A stretch of DNA of 64,000 nucleotides, taken from assembly GCF_001905145.1 (NCBI RefSeq), contig NZ_LWLB01000033.1, positions 372,001 to 436,000 of the forward strand, given 5' to 3'. Under the pieces are notes generated by a model. The model ran no database searches, had not been told where the DNA came from, and was given only the letters and a program-made list of their open reading frames with translations. The position numbers and the translations under genes are program-made. Positions 57,359 to 64,000 of this stretch are shown one piece after another. Positions within the stretch are counted from its first letter, which is position 1; every line of letters begins with the position of its first letter. The DNA comes from Nocardiopsis sp. TSRI0078 (GTDB taxonomy: Bacteria > Actinomycetota > Actinomycetes > Streptosporangiales > Streptosporangiaceae).

Positions 57359-57673
57359 ATGTACCTGGTCCAACTCTCTTTCCTTCCCTCCGTGGAGGGT
57401 CGGGAGTTCCCCGGCGATGTCCGGGAAATGCTCTACTCCAGCGCACGCGCGGAGGACGGTCTCGAACACGTGAGTGTCAGTGAAAAGCCCGGGGCCGACC
57501 CCGTGATCGGGCTCTTCCTCCTTTCCCCGGACCTCGCCGGGGCCGAGCGCACGGCGGCCCTCCTGTGGGGCCGGGCCGCCGAACGGCACCCTGAACTCGC
57601 TGATCACCAGCTTTTCAGGGCGGAGGTCCCCCTCATCGACGACGGCGGGGACTGGCCTGGGGAAGGGGTGTAG
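57359..57673 (+). CDS. Conserved hypothetical protein, 104 aa
   Basis: Small soluble acidic protein, MYLVQLSFLPSVEGREF at the start and an Asp/Gly-rich end, with no signal or membrane segment. It may adopt an alpha/beta fold (ADPVIGLFLLSPDLAGAERT). Sequences of this type occur singly in actinobacteria and I cannot name the family. GAGGTCA precedes the ATG. Its position at the cluster edge next to the AT-rich promoter region could mean that it belongs to the biosynthetic cluster or to neither. Confidence 0.7.
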   Translation: MYLVQLSFLPSVEGREFPGDVREMLYSSARAEDGLEHVSVSEKPGADPVIGLFLLSPDLAGAERTAALLWGRAAERHPELADHQLFRAEVPLIDDGGDWPGEGV

Positions 57674-57815: not shown

Positions 57816-58019
57816 GTGTCCATTCGTGTGAACGCTCTTTCCGTGGCAGTTTCCTCCACATTCGTTATCGCCTTCTCGGCTCTCGCGGGATTTTCTCCCG
57901 CTGTGGCGGCGGACGGCGGCGCGGAAACGCTCCGGACCGCCTCCGCGGTCACCTCCGACGACTCCGGCTGGCAGTCGGTCGGCACCGGCCTCCAGTCGGG
58001 CGACTCGGGCTGGCAGTAG
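57816..58019 (+). CDS. Secreted 67-aa peptide with two DSGWQ motifs
   Basis: Starts at GTG after AAGAAGGGAAA. The first 31 residues form a signal peptide with a long hydrophobic core (VAVSSTFVIAFSALAG) and a probable cut after AVA. The remaining 36 residues (ADGGAETLRTASAV to the end) are rich in Ser, Gly and Asp and contain the motif DSGWQ twice, the second at the very C-terminus. No cysteine is present. The gene ends 50 bases before the PLP decarboxylase gene and may share its transcript. It could be a peptide substrate, signal or structural peptide; no family is recognised. Confidence 0.75.
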   Translation: MSIRVNALSVAVSSTFVIAFSALAGFSPAVAADGGAETLRTASAVTSDDSGWQSVGTGLQSGDSGWQ

Positions 58020-58069
58020 GGGCCGAAGCGGTCCGCCACATCCCACGCACGACCGACGGAAGGTGAAAG

Positions 58070-59338
58070 GTGCCCACCACCGAGTCCCCCGGACCCGACC
58101 ACGCACGACTCGCGGAGGAGTTCGGAACCCCGCTCTTCGTCTACGACGCCCAGACCGCCGAACGCTCCTACGCCGCCCTCAGACGGGCGCTCCCCGAGGG
58201 CGTCGACATCATGTACTCCCTCAAGGCCAACCCGAACGTCAGCGTCTGCGCGCTGCTCGGCTCACTCGGCGCCGGCGCCGAGGTCAGCTCCCACGCCGAA
58301 CTCGTCACCGCGCTGCGGGCGGGGATCGCACCCGAGGACGTCATCTTCCTCGGACCGGGAAAGTCGCACCAGGAACTGGAGGCATGCCTGGACGCGGGGA
58401 TCGCGGCACTGGTCTGCGAGTCCCTGGACGAGGTGGAACGCGTCGACGCGCTGGTCGGCCAGCGCGGTTCGGCGCCCTTTCCGGTGATGCTCAGGGTGAA
58501 CCCGTCCTTCGCCGCCAAGGGACAGGGCCTGGCCATGGGCGGCAAACCCCGCCAGTTCGGGATCGACGAGGCGGTGGTACGCGACGCCAAGCACCGTCTG
58601 GGCGACCTCGCCGGCGTCCGGATCACGGGAATCCACGCCTACATGGGCACGAGGTTCCTCGACCACACCAGTGTCGTCCGCAACACCGAGCGCATCCTCG
58701 GCCTGGCCGAGTCCCTCGCCGCCGACCTGGGGATCGACCTGGAGTCGGTGGACTTCGGCGGCGGCCTCGGCGTCGCCTACTTCGCGGGCGAGGGCGATCC
58801 GGACATGGCGGCCCTGGGCCGGGGCATGCACGAGGCGATCGCCGACTTCCGCGGCCGCAACCCCCGCTGCCGCCTGATGATGGAGTCCGGACGCTACCTG
58901 ACCGCCGCGTCGGGCACCTACGTGGTGCGCGTACGCGAGGTCAAGGAGTCCATGGGTGAACTGTTCGCCGTGGCCGACGGGGGGACCAACCACCACATGG
59001 CCGCCGTGGGCGTCGGCAGCTTCGCCAAGCGGAACTTCCCCGTGCGCCGCCTCGGCCCGGCGGAGTCGTCCGCCACGCACGAGTACTCCGTCACCGGGCC
59101 GCTGTGCACGCCCAACGACCTCATCGCCAAGAAGGTCGTCCTGCCCGAGCTGCGTGCGGGCGACCTGCTCGGAATCGGGCGCTCGGGCGCCTACGGGCCC
59201 ACCGCCTCACCCGGGCTGTTCCTCAGCCACGGCTATCCCGCCGAGGTCATGGTCCACCGGGGCCGCGCCCACCTGGTGCGGCTCCCCGACACCACCGGAG
59301 ACCTGCTGGGCAGGCAGCGTCTCGTCGACCTCCGGTGA
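58070..59338 (+). CDS. PLP-dependent decarboxylase, BtrK/VinO-like (fold type III)
   Basis: A 422-residue enzyme of the diaminopimelate/ornithine decarboxylase fold. The PLP Lys is K52 in MYSLKANPN. Specific features are FLGPGKSHQELEA, MGGKPRQFG, MESGRYL, DGGTNHHMAA, GPLCTPNDLIAKK (the catalytic Cys of the second subunit) and SGAYGPTASPGLFLSH. These match BtrK (decarboxylates glutamyl-carrier protein in butirosin synthesis), VinO and the exosortase-associated decarboxylases, more than lysine-pathway DAP decarboxylase. It is therefore inferred to decarboxylate an amino acid tethered to the ACP at 61822. The start is the GTG after GGAAGG. The stop overlaps the next gene. Confidence 0.85.
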   Translation: MPTTESPGPDHARLAEEFGTPLFVYDAQTAERSYAALRRALPEGVDIMYSLKANPNVSVCALLGSLGAGAEVSSHAELVTALRAGIAPEDVIFLGPGKSHQELEACLDAGIAALVCESLDEVERVDALVGQRGSAPFPVMLRVNPSFAAKGQGLAMGGKPRQFGIDEAVVRDAKHRLGDLAGVRITGIHAYMGTRFLDHTSVVRNTERILGLAESLAADLGIDLESVDFGGGLGVAYFAGEGDPDMAALGRGMHEAIADFRGRNPRCRLMMESGRYLTAASGTYVVRVREVKESMGELFAVADGGTNHHMAAVGVGSFAKRNFPVRRLGPAESSATHEYSVTGPLCTPNDLIAKKVVLPELRAGDLLGIGRSGAYGPTASPGLFLSHGYPAEVMVHRGRAHLVRLPDTTGDLLGRQRLVDLR

Positions 59339-59796
59339 GCACGGGCACCGGCTCCACCGCCCTGCGCGTCGGCGTCGACGTCCTGGACCGGCGCGAACTG
59401 GACCGGCTCACGCGCCGACCGTGGTTCCTGCGCTTCGGGTACGCGCCGGGCGAGGTGGAGGAGGCCGCCGGCATGGGTACGCGGCGCCGGGCGGAGTTCC
59501 TGTCGGGGCGCTTCGCCGCCAAGGAGGCGGTCCTCAAGGCACTGGGACACGGACTGCTCCAGGGGGTGGCGCCGCGCGACATCTGGGTGGTCCGGGAGGA
59601 GGGGGGCGCACCAAGGGTCGTCTTCCTCGGGGAGGCCGCGCGGATGGGCCTGCCCCCCGTGTCCCTGTCGATCTCACACAAGGAGAACGTCGTCGTCGCC
59701 GTGGCCCTGTGCGTGCGTGGAACCGACGCACCGCGGCCCCCGCGGACCGGCCCTGACGACGAGAAGGAGGTAGGAGCACATGAGCACCACCACTGA
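59335..59796 (+). CDS. AcpS-type 4'-phosphopantetheinyl transferase
   Basis: A 153-residue enzyme that would load the phosphopantetheine arm from CoA onto the ACP encoded 2 kb downstream. It has the N-terminal GVDVLDRREL (Mg-binding Asp) and the catalytic SGRFAAKEAVLKALGHGL (Glu). The beta-strand SLSISHKENVVVAVAL contains the CoA-binding SH motif. The C-terminus has a disordered Pro/Arg/His tail. GTG overlaps the decarboxylase stop. A dedicated PPTase suggests that the carrier protein is not served by the housekeeping enzyme. Confidence 0.85.
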   Translation: MSTGTGSTALRVGVDVLDRRELDRLTRRPWFLRFGYAPGEVEEAAGMGTRRRAEFLSGRFAAKEAVLKALGHGLLQGVAPRDIWVVREEGGAPRVVFLGEAARMGLPPVSLSISHKENVVVAVALCVRGTDAPRPPRTGPDDEKEVGAHEHHH

Positions 59797-60250
59797 ACGG
59801 ACCGAGCGGCGGGAAGCGCCCGCCGCCCCGGCGGACGAGGACCGGGAGGCCGGCGAGACCACGGCGTTCCTGCGGGTGCGCCTGAACGAGGCCGACGCCT
59901 ACTACGGCGGGAACGTGGTGGAGGGCGCCCGCGTCCTGCGCCTGTTCGGCGACCTGGTCACCGAGATCACCGTCCGGGAGGACGGGGACGAGGGCCTGCT
60001 GGCCGCCTACTCGGACGTGCGCTTCACCGCTCCCGTCTCGCCCGGCGACTACCTGGAGGTCCGCGGCCGCCTCGTGCGCCGGACCCGGTTGCGCAGGGTC
60101 GTGGAGATGACCGCCCACAAGGTGATCGCCGCCGATCCCGGGACGCGTCCCAGCGCGGCACGCCTCCTCCCCGAACCCCGGCTCGTGTGCGCCGCGACGG
60201 CCACGACCGTGGTCCCCCACGAAGCAGTGAGAAAGAAGGAGTCCCCGTGA
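59780..60250 (+). CDS. Hotdog-fold protein like 3-aminobutyryl-CoA ammonia-lyase
   Basis: A 156-residue hotdog domain. It carries FLRVRLNEADAYYGGNVVEGARVLRL-type features, seen as YYGGNVVEGARVL and the acidic GDLVTEITVREDGDEGLLA, then DVRFTAPVSPGDYLEVRGRL. These are close to Kal, the lysine-fermentation enzyme that eliminates ammonia from 3-aminobutyryl-CoA. In this cluster it could act on a beta-aminoacyl- or enoyl-ACP by removing or adding ammonia, or act as a thioesterase. The start is ATG with GAAGGAGG upstream and overlaps the PPTase by 17 bases; its stop overlaps the ligase start. Confidence 0.8.
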   Translation: MSTTTERTERREAPAAPADEDREAGETTAFLRVRLNEADAYYGGNVVEGARVLRLFGDLVTEITVREDGDEGLLAAYSDVRFTAPVSPGDYLEVRGRLVRRTRLRRVVEMTAHKVIAADPGTRPSAARLLPEPRLVCAATATTVVPHEAVRKKESP

Positions 60251-61764
60251 ACACCGAGCCGCGACTACTGCACGACCTGCTCGACCGGGCGGCCGAGCGC
60301 GACCCGCACACCCCCTTCCTGTCCTTCCGCGACCAGGCCACCGGCCTCGGCGAGCTCGCCGACACCAGCACCCGCATCGCCCACCACCTGCGTGCACGCG
60401 GCGTGAGGCGCGCGGACCGGGTGGTCGTGCGGACCGGGAACCCGCTGGCGGCCGTCTCCGCGCTCTTCGCCGTCTCCCGCGTCGGCGGGGTGTTCAGCCT
60501 CCTGCACGAGAGCGTTCGCGACGGCGCCCTGTCCCACGTCCTCAAGGACTGCGAGCCCGCGGTCGTGGTCTGCGACACCGACGAGGCCGAGGACGAGGCC
60601 ACCGCGGGGGGCGCCGACTTCCTGACCACGGACGAGCTGCTCGGCACGGACGGCGGGCCCGCTCGGGCCCCCGCGCCCGCCGGCTCCGGCCACGACCGGG
60701 CGCTGGAGGTGGACCCGGTGTGCATGATCTACACCTCCGGCACCACCTCCCGGCCCAAGGCCGTGGTGAGCACGCACCAGCAGGTGCTGTTCTCCGCCCG
60801 GGCCATCCAGCGGCGTCTGTCCTACCGGTCCGACGACACGGTGTACTGCCCGCTGCCGGTCTCCTTCGACTACGGGCTCTACCAGGTCTACCTGGTGCTG
60901 CTGGCCGGGGCGCGGCTGCGTTTCGGCACGGCCGCCGAATCCGGGCCGCCGCTGTTGCGCAGCCTGGTCGAGAGCGGGGCGACCGTCCTGGCCGGTGTGC
61001 CCGCCGTCTCCGACCGGCTGGCGTGGCTGGCGGCCCGCACCGAGCACAGGCCCACCTCCCTGCGCCTGCTCACCAACACCGGCGCCGCGCTCTCGGAGAA
61101 GACCGTCGCCTCACTGAGGAGCTCTCTTCCCGGGCTGCGGGTGCAGGTGATGTACGGCCTGACCGAGTGCAAGCGTGCCACCATCATGCCGCCCGACGGC
61201 GACCTGGACCATCCGGGCTCGTGCGGCCTGCCGCTGGACGGGACCGAGGTCTTCGTCACCGGCCCCGACGGTGAGCGGCTCCCGCCCGGTGAGACCGGCC
61301 AGATCGTGGTACGCGGCCCCAACGTCATGGCCGGCTACTGGAGGCGCGAGGAGCTGACGGCCGAGCGCTTCCACCGCCGGGACGGGCTCTTCCCGGAGCT
61401 GCGGACGGGCGACTACGGATGGCAGGACGAGGACGGCTACCTGTACTTCGACGGCCGCAGGGACGACATCTACAAGGAGCGCGGCTTCCGGGTCAGCGCG
61501 ACCGAGGTCGAGGCGGCCGCCCACCGGGTCGACGGCGTGACCTCCGCGATCGTCCTCCCGCCGGAGGGCCGCAGCCCCGCCCAGCTCGCGGTCATCGCCG
61601 CCATCCCCAGGGAGGAGGTCCTGGTGAGGATGCGCGCGGAGATCGAGGAGTACAAGATCCCCCGGGTCTGCACCCGGTTCGACGACCTGCCCACCAACGG
61701 CAACGGCAAGGTCGACCGCAAGCGGCTCGCCCGGCTGATCTCGGCCGGACGGGGCCGTGACTGA
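60247..61764 (+). CDS. Stand-alone AMP-forming amino/acyl-acid ligase
   Basis: A 505-residue adenylating enzyme expected to activate a carboxylic or amino acid with ATP and pass it to the ACP next door. It has core motif A3 YTSGTTSRPKAVV, A5 YGLTECKRATIMP, A7 GDYGWQDEDGYLYF and A10 NGNGKVDRK, whose Lys is the adenylation Lys. The A5 form YGLTECKR and the combination with a PLP decarboxylase and ACP match the exosortase-associated ligase/decarboxylase/ACP cassettes and VinN-like loading enzymes. The substrate-specificity residues cannot be assigned by eye. The GTG overlaps the hotdog gene (GTGA). Confidence 0.85.
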   Translation: MNTEPRLLHDLLDRAAERDPHTPFLSFRDQATGLGELADTSTRIAHHLRARGVRRADRVVVRTGNPLAAVSALFAVSRVGGVFSLLHESVRDGALSHVLKDCEPAVVVCDTDEAEDEATAGGADFLTTDELLGTDGGPARAPAPAGSGHDRALEVDPVCMIYTSGTTSRPKAVVSTHQQVLFSARAIQRRLSYRSDDTVYCPLPVSFDYGLYQVYLVLLAGARLRFGTAAESGPPLLRSLVESGATVLAGVPAVSDRLAWLAARTEHRPTSLRLLTNTGAALSEKTVASLRSSLPGLRVQVMYGLTECKRATIMPPDGDLDHPGSCGLPLDGTEVFVTGPDGERLPPGETGQIVVRGPNVMAGYWRREELTAERFHRRDGLFPELRTGDYGWQDEDGYLYFDGRRDDIYKERGFRVSATEVEAAAHRVDGVTSAIVLPPEGRSPAQLAVIAAIPREEVLVRMRAEIEEYKIPRVCTRFDDLPTNGNGKVDRKRLARLISAGRGRD

Positions 61765-61821
61765 GGAACGACCGCACACGAGCCAAGACGACACCCGCAC
61801 CGACACACCAAGGAGACGAAC

Positions 61822-62082
61822 ATGCAGCGCAACGACGTGACCAAGGCTCTTGAGACGGCCCTCTCGGAGGCCCTGGAGCGAGAGGTCGCCGACCTGGACG
61901 GCGGCGTCCGCCTCTTCGACGACCTGCACCTGGACTCCACCTCGATGCTGGAGGTCCTCATGGGTCTGGAGGAGTCCATCGGACTGGAGGTCGCCCCGGA
62001 GGACCTGGAGATCGAGGCGTTCGAGTCCGTGGACACCCTCACCGACTTCGTCCTGGCCGCCACCCGGCCCGCCGCGGTCTGA
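61822..62082 (+). CDS. Acyl carrier protein
   Basis: An 86-residue acidic, helical protein with [20 protein letters not shown]; Ser 39 in LDSTSM is the phosphopantetheine site. It lies 57 bases after the ligase gene and before ectC, and carries [14 protein letters not shown] at the N-terminal helix. It is most likely the carrier for the amino acid activated by the ligase and decarboxylated by the BtrK-like enzyme. GAGACGA and AAGGAGA lie before the ATG. Confidence 0.92.
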
Positions 62083-62125
62083 GCACGACGCCCCCCGCCG
62101 AACCGCCACCCCCAGAGAGGCCGCC

Positions 62126-62530
62126 ATGCTGATCCGTTCCTTCGCCGAGATCGAGGACACCGAACGCCACGTCAAGGGTGCCAAGGGCACCTGGGAGAGC
62201 AAGCGGATCGTGCTCGCCAGGGAGGGCGTCGGGTTCTCCCTGCACGAGACCACCGTCTACGCGGGCACCGAGACGTCCCTGTGGTACGCCAACCACTACG
62301 AGGCCGTCCTGTGCGTCGAGGGCGAGATGGAGCTGACCGACGACGAGACCGGTGAGAAGCACTGGATCACCCCCGGGGTCATGTACCTGCTCGACGGACA
62401 CGAGCGGCACACCCTGCGCCCGACCAAGGACTCCCGTTTCGTCTGTGTGTTCAACCCCCCGGTCACCGGCCGCGAGGACCACGACGAGAACGGCGCCTAC
62501 CCCCTCCTGACCGACGCGGCGGACGCCTGA
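62126..62530 (+). CDS. ectC: Ectoine synthase (cupin)
   Basis: Cyclises N-gamma-acetyl-2,4-diaminobutyrate to ectoine by loss of water in a cupin barrel. The 134-residue protein is canonical: [49 protein letters not shown] and [16 protein letters not shown], ending [17 protein letters not shown]. The metal or substrate residues of known EctC correspond to Glu 59, Tyr 87 and His 95, all present. It follows the ACP gene by 43 bases. EctB, which supplies diaminobutyrate, is not in the cluster, so its substrate source or identity is open. Confidence 0.94.
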
Positions 62531-62600
62531 GGCCGCCCCCGTCCACCGGCCGCGGCCCCGCGGGCGAGGACCCCGACACGACCAGGACCAAGGAGTCACG

Positions 62601-63125
62601 ATGACCGTCACGATGGAAGACCGGACCGCCCTCCCCGCGCGCGACCGGGTCGTCTTCCGCCGGCCCGAGCCCTCCGACGCCCACGCCGTCCGGGAGATGG
62701 TGGAGGCCTCCGAGGAGCTCGACGACAACAGCGAGTACTACTACATGATCTGGTTCCGCGACTTCGCGCGGACCTCGATGGTGGCCACCCTCGACGGGGA
62801 GGTCATCGGTTTCCTCAGCGGCTACCGCCGCCCCGACCAGCCCGACACCTACTTCGTCTGGCAGGAGGCGGTCACACCCAGGCACGGCATCCCCTTCCTC
62901 GGGGTGAAGCTCTTCGACCACGCCGTGGAGCAGGAGCTCCTGGCCGGAGCCAGGTACGTGGAGGCGACCGTCTCCGAGGCCAACACACCGATCGTGATGG
63001 TGCTCAAGCGGTTCGCCAAGCGGTGGGGCGCCGGCATCGACAGGAGCGTGCTCTTCACCAGCGCCGACTTCGGCGGCGGCCACCACGAGGAGACCCTGTA
63101 CCGGATCGGCCCGGTCGCGCCCTGA
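62601..63125 (+). CDS. ectA: Diaminobutyrate acetyltransferase (EctA-like GNAT)
   Basis: Acetylates the gamma-amino group of 2,4-diaminobutyrate with acetyl-CoA. The 174-residue product has the EctA landmarks FRRPEPSDAHAVREMV, LDDNSEYYYMIWFRDFA, SMVATLDGEVIGFLSGYR, PDTYFVWQEAV, YVEATVSEANTP and HHEETLYRIGP. The pocket between strands 4 and 5, where standard EctA has a GRGLA-type acetyl-CoA loop, reads HGIPFLGVKLF, so the pyrophosphate loop is unusual; activity on another amine is possible. It is the last gene of the cluster and ends at a hairpin. Order (C before A) is reversed compared with ectABC. Confidence 0.88.
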   Translation: MTVTMEDRTALPARDRVVFRRPEPSDAHAVREMVEASEELDDNSEYYYMIWFRDFARTSMVATLDGEVIGFLSGYRRPDQPDTYFVWQEAVTPRHGIPFLGVKLFDHAVEQELLAGARYVEATVSEANTPIVMVLKRFAKRWGAGIDRSVLFTSADFGGGHHEETLYRIGPVAP

Positions 63126-63225: not shown

Positions 63226-64000
63226 TCAGGCCGCGTGCGACGTGCCCCGGAAGGTGCGCCGGTAGGCGCTGGGCGACACGCCGAGTTCGGCGTGCATGCG
63301 CTGGCGCAGGGACGCCGCCGTACCGAAACCCGCCTCGTACGCGATCCGGTCCACCGGCAGATCCGACTCCTCCAGCAACTGCCGGGCCCGGTCCAGGCGC
63401 TGCTGGGCGATCCACTGGCCGGGTGAGAGCCCCACCTCGTCGCGGAACCGGCGGGTGAAGGTGCGCACGCTCATGGACTCCTGGCCGGCCATCTCCCGCA
63501 GGCTCGGCTGGAGGTGGAGGTGGCCCAGGGCCCAGGATCGCGCGCGGCCGGTCGCGGCCCGTTCCGGTGCGGGCACGGGGTGGCGGATGTACTGGGCCTG
63601 GCCGCCGTCCCGGTGGGGCGGCACGACGGTGCTGCGCGCCACCTCGTTGGCCACGGCGGCGCCGTGGTCGACACGGATCATGTGCAGGCTCAGGTCGATA
63701 CCGGAGGCGACCCCGGCGGCGGTCAGCACGCGCCCGTTGTCGGTGTACAGCACGTTCGGGTCCAGGTCGATGCCGGGGTACATGGCGCGGAAGAAGCCCG
63801 CCGACTTCCAGTGGGTGGTCACACGGCACCCGGTCAGCAGCCCCGCGGCGGCGAGCACGAACGCCCCGGTGCAGATGGAGGCCACACGCGCGTCCGGTCG
63901 GATGCCGGCGACGGCCGCGGCCAGGGCCGGGGAGAGGGGGTCGTGCGGGCGTTCGACGTAGTCCTCGTCGGCGGCGGGCAGGATCACCGTCCGGGCATCG
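63226..64000 (-). CDS. GlxA/AraC-family transcriptional regulator (partial, 5' end outside)
   Basis: At least 258 residues are encoded; the frame continues beyond base 64000, so the N-terminus is missing. A DJ-1/PfpI-like domain with VASICTGAFVLAAAGLLTGC (the conserved Cys-x-Gly elbow) and TTHWKSA is followed by an AraC helix-turn-helix pair (QESMSVRTFTRRFRDEVGLS and IAYEAGFGTAASLRQRMHAE). Regulators of this GlxA-like class respond to nitrogen or amine metabolites in some bacteria. Its position opposite the end of the ectoine-like cluster suggests a link, but it is not proven. Confidence 0.88.
   Translation of the reverse strand, partial: DARTVILPAADEDYVERPHDPLSPALAAAVAGIRPDARVASICTGAFVLAAAGLLTGCRVTTHWKSAGFFRAMYPGIDLDPNVLYTDNGRVLTAAGVASGIDLSLHMIRVDHGAAVANEVARSTVVPPHRDGGQAQYIRHPVPAPERAATGRARSWALGHLHLQPSLREMAGQESMSVRTFTRRFRDEVGLSPGQWIAQQRLDRARQLLEESDLPVDRIAYEAGFGTAASLRQRMHAELGVSPSAYRRTFRGTSHAA

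Follow-up and report, generated by a model that had tools for sequence, protein, structure and literature searches.

The cluster and its genes

The window analysed here is a stretch of 64,000 nucleotides from contig NZ_LWLB01000033.1 of Nocardiopsis sp. TSRI0078. It contains a run of eight genes at positions 57816-63125, all on the + strand, that places an amino-acid carrier-protein pathway beside enzymes of ectoine biosynthesis. The families of these genes had been listed in an initial annotation, and open reading frame (ORF) calls and profile searches bear out all eight. The run is taken here, with moderate confidence, to encode a carrier-protein-dependent variant of ectoine biosynthesis, in which aspartate would be converted to an acryloyl group on an acyl carrier protein (ACP) and EctA- and EctC-type enzymes dependent on this acyl-ACP would build an ectoine substituted at C2.

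The first gene encodes a small peptide of 67 amino acids (aa) (57816-58019). It is followed by genes for a pyridoxal phosphate (PLP) decarboxylase of the BtrK/VinO type (422 aa, 58070-59338), whose predicted substrate is an ACP-bound amino acid; an AcpS-type phosphopantetheinyl transferase (PPTase; 153 aa, 59335-59796, Pfam ACPS E 1.5e-12); a Kal-like hotdog protein (156 aa, 59780-60250), predicted to be a beta-aminoacyl-thioester ammonia lyase; an AMP-forming, VinN/FlvN-like ligase (505 aa, 60247-61764), predicted to be an aspartate:ACP ligase; and the ACP itself (86 aa, 61822-62082, Pfam PP-binding E 1.9e-5), with its serine in a DST motif. The last two genes encode EctC2, a cyclase of the ectoine synthase type with its catalytic residues kept (134 aa, 62126-62530), and EctA2, a predicted diaminobutyrate N-acyltransferase (174 aa, 62601-63125). 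EctC2 scores 183 bits against the ectoine synthase model NF009806 (cut-off 128) and EctA2 131 bits against TIGR02406 (cut-off 120.6), and EctA2 carries the loop RHGIPFLG without the usual GNAT donor loop. Within the eight-gene run three junctions are overlaps (4, 17 and 4 bases) and four are gaps (50, 57, 43 and 70 bases). The genome, of 6.1 Mb, also contains a separate, ordinary ectABC set on a different contig.

Distribution and conservation

Species genomes were scanned with the decarboxylase as query; the best 80 of 130 relatives were used, so that clusters may be missed. The scan gave 13 loci in which the carrier-protein genes are accompanied by ect genes (ect-type loci), a set of 392 Streptomyces genomes gave six more, and with the window the total is 20 genomes. 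The hosts are Nocardiopsis, Streptomyces, Lentzea and relatives. Among the best 80 of the 130 relatives, the closest named locus is that of Nocardiopsis quinghaiensis, with a decarboxylase 95% identical to that of the window. One locus (L040) ends at a contig edge inside kal and lies outside the 19 evaluable loci. Another (L041) leaves its contig inside ectB, and L159, from the same genome, was taken as its probable other half.

In all 19 evaluable loci, the window included, the genes for the decarboxylase, AcpS, Kal, ligase and ACP stand in this fixed order with ectA behind them. The proposal that the locus is a genuine cluster in which ectoine enzymes are combined with a carrier-protein pathway for an amino acid, and the co-occurrence in other genomes expected from it, are thus upheld: ectA stays with the core and the same order recurs in other species. 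For the same reason chance adjacency of ectC and ectA was rejected. EctC of the type seen in the window is present in 13 of the 19 loci and a divergent EctC in four (L042, L044, L180 and L189), while the clusters of the remaining two, L043 and L055, yielded no ectC. EctB is encoded in 14 of the 15 evaluable loci outside Nocardiopsis, on the opposite strand in L183; it was not found in the L184 cluster nor in any of the four Nocardiopsis clusters. Six Streptomyces loci (L039, L159, L045, L051, L181 and L182) have ectD directly after ectA, and six loci (L042, L043, L044, L055, L180 and L189) carry genes for a P450, a ferredoxin and a ferredoxin reductase. In L045 (16199-17740) ectA2 and ectD share one open frame of 495 aa with a proline-rich linker, either a natural fusion or a sequence error; its close relative L051 has the two as separate genes.

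The ect-type cluster is rare. A close Kal was found in 13 of the 392 Streptomyces genomes, nine times within ect-type clusters, in a sample centred on a genome already known to carry the cluster. Across the class, two of 394 genomes have a close match to EctA2, at E 1e-38 or better, namely the window's own and one other of the same genus (G151). Some relative of Kal occurs in 66 of 200 genomes of the family, with at least 80% identity only in these same two genomes.

Twelve cluster genomes were tested for EctA. The cluster EctA was recovered in all 12, and 11 also have an ordinary EctA, which argues that the cluster is specialised. That it is the cell's ordinary ectoine supply is unlikely in those 11 genomes. 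Above the cut-offs, the Lentzea aerocolonigenes genome gave one EctA and, as its sole EctC, that of the cluster. In the genome of Streptomyces eurythermus (L164 and L165), one locus has ectB and ectC but its stretch gave nothing resembling EctA2; the other has an EctC relative just 36% identical, with no match to ectA or ectB.

Ligase, decarboxylase and Kal

The closest solved relative of the ligase is VinN (3wvn, E 1.2e-103), and the best entry other than VinN follows at 1.5e-62. As the two E-values are some 41 orders of magnitude apart, a fatty-acid ligase is unlikely. In VinN, the beta-amino group is held by D230, the key residues of a loop include K330 and R331, and F231 and S299 lie opposite (PMC11253843). 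When the VinN numbering was mapped with an inferred construct offset of 16, D230, K330 and R331 were found to be retained in all 17 cluster ligases aligned (L041 is outside this count, and the ligase row of L188, in the wrong reading frame, was disregarded), while by the same alignment F231 is replaced by Y and S299 by T in all 17. Key residues of the beta-amino-acid pocket are therefore kept, which speaks against a ligase confined to fatty acids and so favours the initial annotation. L189, whose assembly is broken by frameshifts, was excluded from the ligase, Kal and EctC counts and from the gene trees but included in the EctA counts.

VinN puts 3-methylaspartate on the ACP VinL, decarboxylation by VinO follows, and the substrate of the related FlvN is aspartate (PMC11284099). 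The genome of the window yielded no glutamate mutase E subunit, which makes 3-methylaspartate less likely and favours aspartate. Aspartate is also a more probable substrate for loading than glutamate.

For the decarboxylase the best solved structures are BtrK (2j66, E 1.4e-76) and 7ru7 (E 1.5e-76). The top NCBIfam matches of the two enzymes, TIGR03098 for the ligase (299 bits, cut-off 592) and TIGR03099 for the decarboxylase (345 bits, cut-off 478), both fail their cut-offs.

Kal has a single solved relative at E <=0.01, the beta-alanyl-CoA:ammonia lyase 4mtu (E 7.8e-16); the reaction of such a lyase has been described (PMC4619459). When 17 cluster rows were compared with 28 ordinary rows, the core YGG..V.GA..LFGD..TE was found to be largely kept with single-row exceptions, and the cluster proteins show fixed changes relative to ordinary KAL at positions 102, 104 and 105 and elsewhere. 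The ratio of non-synonymous to synonymous rates (dN/dS) is 2.1 for kal and 1.2 for ectC2 in the closest pair, values based on a handful of changes (dS 0.016 and 0.011), and in the other two pairs 0.29-0.31 for kal and 0.11-0.31 for ectC2.

EctA2 retains its acceptor half and loses the usual donor loop

Nineteen cluster EctA sequences were aligned with 15 ordinary ones, a position being counted as shared when 90% or more of the sequences in each group have the same residue. There are 32 shared positions and nine fixed differences between the groups, seven of which fall at residues 97-135, in the donor half. In GNAT enzymes the usual loop binds the pyrophosphate of CoA. The wide form of this presumed acetyl-CoA loop, [QR]Gx[GR][LI]A, is present in 15/15 ordinary sequences and 0/19 cluster sequences, and is replaced by RHGxPxLG in 19/19 cluster sequences and 0/15 ordinary ones. 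An AlphaFold2 model of EctA2 (pLDDT 77.7), compared with known structures by VIA-align, matched EctA first with a Z of 20.4, other GNATs reaching at most 16.6; the donor loop itself was judged by sequence. The EctA structures matched include complexes with substrate, product and CoA. The gene is under purifying selection, with a dN/dS of 0.21-0.43 in three pairs.

The presence of EctB in the cluster outside Nocardiopsis, the kept acceptor half and the lost donor loop together suggest that the donor is an ACP-bound group and the acceptor free diaminobutyrate. The initial annotation had instead proposed that EctA acetylates, and EctC cyclises, the ACP-bound amino acid itself. The gene content agrees with this proposal, but the clusters of genera other than Nocardiopsis include EctB, ordinary EctA has the same residues at the conserved positions beyond the donor half, and the loop expected for the usual donor is gone, so that this route now appears very improbable. 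The broader expectation of an ectoine analogue stands, as this is the likely kind of product.

EctC2 and the gene trees

Ten positions concerned with metal, substrate and product have been named for the PlEctC enzyme (PMC6344544). These ten are the same in the EctC of the cluster (13 sequences) and in the ordinary EctC of actinobacteria (15 sequences), and nine of them match PlEctC, the tenth being N38, which is H in 13/13 cluster and 15/15 ordinary sequences. Four positions alone separate cluster from ordinary EctC (ordinary residues in brackets): V44 (L), M/T/S68 (A), S103 (F) and F/Y105 (C/V). By sequence, three of the four are near pocket residues. V44 lies two residues beyond T42 (T40 in PlEctC), and S103 and F105 probably face the pocket because, given the alternation of a strand, they are in step with C107 and F109 (PlEctC C104 and F106). 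The divergent EctC of L042, L044 and L180 has the cluster state at all four separating positions, in spite of carrying S in place of N38 and H in place of the metal ligand Y84. These divergent genes (L042:18957-19349 and L044:18658-19071; also in L180 and L189) lie beside the P450, ferredoxin and reductase genes.

In the EctA tree, 18 cluster and 15 ordinary rows are split with support of 100/100, and in the EctC tree 16 cluster and 15 ordinary rows are split with support of 99/96. The EctB tree of 13 cluster and 15 ordinary rows is unsplit, with four label changes. Exchange with the ordinary genes has thus affected EctB but neither EctA nor EctC. Separate clades of EctA and EctC with a mixed EctB are what would be expected if diaminobutyrate is shared between the two pathways and the acyl donor is private to one. 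Additional ect sets have been noted in Streptomyces, as have solitary ectC genes whose function is unclear (PMC5924519), in passages that make no mention of a link to a carrier protein.

These results bear on the possibility that the ect genes give ordinary ectoine or hydroxyectoine, to which the aminoacyl group of the ACP is attached later as an ester or amide. EctC2 keeps its catalytic residues, EctA2 scores above the EctA cut-off and ectD follows ectA in the six Streptomyces loci, as would be expected if this were so. However, no condensation enzyme, amide ligase or acyltransferase other than EctA2 is among the recurring genes identified, an ordinary EctA is already present in 11 of the 12 genomes, and the donor loop is lost from all 19 cluster EctA sequences. 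Such late attachment is considered improbable.

The core without ectoine genes

Four loci (L185-L188) contain the decarboxylase, ACP, AcpS, Kal and ligase and have no ect genes. Polyketide synthase (PKS) domains AT-DH-KR-ACP-TE adjoin the core in L185 and L187, and an acyltransferase domain in L188. The large ORF of L186 is the counterpart of that of L187 (79% identical), and a KAS III-like protein is encoded near the core in L187. Five further loci (L047-L050 and L054) have a decarboxylase 60-63% identical to that of the window, an ACP and a PPTase, with no Kal and no AMP ligase; they share ATP-grasp and AurF-like genes, for which L049 gave Pfam matches, and a KAS III-like gene, for which the Pfam match comes from L054. 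L054 also encodes a protein resembling class II (seryl-)tRNA synthetases, with a match below the Pfam cut-off (25.7 against 29.3 bits).

For the link between core and ectoine genes implied by the initial annotation the outcome is mixed: ectA accompanies the core in every evaluable ect-type locus, but part of what would count against the link also occurs, as four loci on the PKS side have the core, and five on the ATP-grasp side part of it, without ect genes. The ect-free loci look like the same module serving other ends. We infer that the core makes an acyl-ACP which is picked up by a different transferase in each context, and EctA2 is the sole candidate for this transferase among the recurring genes identified in the ect-type clusters. 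L185-L188 would then be candidates for the supply of an acryloyl starter unit made from aspartate.

The existence of the core without ect genes, together with the two clusters in which no ectC was found, might also mean that EctA2 and EctC2 are evolutionary remnants, or that they do something unrelated next to a carrier-protein cluster that works on its own. Given ectA at all 19 loci, the separate EctA and EctC clades and the purifying selection on EctA2, this is the least probable of the explanations considered. A distant pair of ligase (35%) and decarboxylase (44%) with an ACP-like stretch was also seen in the proteobacterium Methylorubrum aminovorans (L052).

Proposed pathway

The gene content, its conservation and the residue patterns described above are consistent with the following scheme, whose reactions, aspartate substrate, ACP donor and acryloyl group are deduced from them. 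The PPTase would activate the ACP and the ligase would load L-aspartate onto it through the beta-carboxyl. The decarboxylase would then strip the alpha-carboxylate to give beta-alanyl-ACP, from which the Kal-like enzyme would eliminate ammonia to give acryloyl-ACP, although addition of an amine in the reverse sense may occur. EctA2 would acylate the gamma-amine of diaminobutyrate from this acyl-ACP rather than from acetyl-CoA, the diaminobutyrate presumably being supplied by the cluster EctB outside Nocardiopsis and by the ordinary ectABC set within it. Finally, EctC2 would close the ring to an ectoine with a group other than methyl at C2, most simply 2-vinyl.

The main alternative to acryloyl is beta-alanyl. 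EctA2 would in that case transfer beta-alanyl to diaminobutyrate, EctC2 would form 2-(2-aminoethyl)-ectoine, and Kal would edit or recycle the ACP-bound group. Beta-alanyl-ACP would be the direct product of ligase and decarboxylase if the substrate is aspartate, and the changes in the EctA2 donor loop and the EctC2 pocket fit equally well. The presence of Kal in all 19 evaluable loci with the ordinary KAL core largely kept suggests, however, that an elimination step is needed, and transfer of beta-alanyl is regarded as rather unlikely.

Several points weigh against the acryloyl scheme. Kal falls below the equivalog cut-off of NF052388 (138 against 160 bits) and the thioester that it uses is open to doubt, the ACP substrate being a prediction; with beta-alanyl-ACP as the donor, Kal would be left with another role. 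Loss of the loop is alone no proof that EctA2 binds an ACP, and the ordinary loop varies too, its strict form [QR]xxGx[GA] being present in 10 of the 15 ordinary sequences. EctA2 passes the TIGR02406 cut-off and may therefore still use acetyl-CoA. Fixed differences between two clades can be due to drift. In L043 and L055, whose clusters yielded no ectC, ring closure would need the ordinary EctC, and the core exists without ect genes in other loci.

Either 2-vinyl ectoine or the open N-gamma-acryloyl-diaminobutyrate would be a reactive Michael acceptor. It is possible, though doubtful, that the product is an antibiotic or signal and not an osmolyte, that its expression depends on the small DD(S/G)GWQ peptide and a LuxR-type regulator, and that the clusters with a P450 oxidise it.

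Small peptide, X and regulators

The 67-aa peptide matches no Pfam or NCBIfam family. Its N-terminus is hydrophobic by eye, and it contains two DSGWQ motifs, the second directly before the stop. A tail of the pattern D(S/G/P)GWQ-stop, with an optional Arg, is present in the window and in 13 of the 19 further ect-type loci searched for it, a set that includes L040 and L041. Every match sits directly upstream of the decarboxylase gene, and the tail reads DD(S/G)GWQ in all of them and GDSGWQ in the window. L040 and L041 have EPGWQR-stop in its place, and no tail was found in L039, L046, L183 and L184. The pattern gave 0 matches in the PKS-type loci (78 kb), the ATP-grasp-type loci (91 kb) and other loci (1.04 Mb). 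Two further DxGWQ matches in the window genome are not such peptide tails.

About 4 to 50 bases separate the peptide stop from the decarboxylase gene downstream, according to which start is taken for the latter. The remainder of the peptide is variable. Its tail and position indicate that the peptide belongs to the system in most clusters; the initial annotation had called it secreted, and the Streptomyces forms have no clear signal sequence by eye. It may be a signal for the LuxR-type regulator or a nascent-chain attenuator.

The gene for X (104 aa, 57359..57673, + strand) is kept upstream of the operon. X gave an AlphaFold2 model with pLDDT 85 and a predicted ferredoxin-like alpha/beta fold, and can be aligned in 13 rows across the loci; it has no Pfam match and no Foldseek match at E <=0.001. 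The LuxR-type regulator has a helix-turn-helix (HTH) domain above the Pfam cut-off and TrmB-like matches below it. In the Nocardiopsis sp. TSRI0078 locus it lies just beyond the window (L033:4399-5394), and its relatives accompany ect-type and ATP-grasp-type clusters. The peptide-free loci L046, L183 and L184 also have no X and no LuxR-type regulator within the stretches examined. On the other side of the operon an AraC-type regulator (DJ-1/PfpI and HTH_18; 63226..64000, - strand) runs beyond the window. It is a neighbour retained in several loci, and a major facilitator superfamily (MFS) transporter gene is next after it, outside the window.

Implications and comparison with known systems

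Searches of the open-licence PMC literature gave, as judged by titles and abstract starts, no description of a link between ectoine enzymes and carrier proteins. If the proposed pathway is correct, ectoine enzymes are not confined to stress protection and can be fed other acyl groups by a carrier protein, giving a family of C2-substituted ectoines as a new natural-product scaffold. Some of the extra ect copies in Streptomyces genomes would thereby gain a function, and near polyketide synthases the module of ligase, ACP, decarboxylase and Kal would turn aspartate into an acryloyl starter.

Compared with ectoine biosynthesis by EctB, EctA, EctC and EctD, the cluster has homologous EctA and EctC, the same EctC catalytic residues and, outside Nocardiopsis, EctB. 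It differs in gene order, B-C-A against the ordinary A-B-C, in an EctA without the usual donor loop, and in the addition of the ligase, ACP, decarboxylase, Kal and PPTase. Kal is a hotdog relative of KAL and beta-alanyl-CoA:ammonia lyase with most of the conserved core, but is below the cut-off, has fixed changes and is predicted to act on an ACP substrate. The exosortase-A-associated families TIGR03098 and TIGR03099 are the top NCBIfam matches of the ligase and decarboxylase, whose scores are far under the cut-offs.

In butirosin biosynthesis BtrI, BtrJ and BtrK convert a gamma-glutamyl group to gamma-aminobutyryl (GABA) on an ACP. BtrK is the top match of the cluster decarboxylase; the cluster, however, uses an AMP-forming ligase, and an ATP-grasp gene takes the place of this ligase in L047-L050 and L054. 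With the macrolactam starter pathway of VinN-VinL-VinO and FlvN the cluster shares a VinN-like ligase with its acid-binding residues, an ACP and a decarboxylase of the BtrK/VinO type. The recurring genes identified include no PKS and no counterpart of VinM or VinK, and the cluster adds to this shared set Kal and the ect genes.

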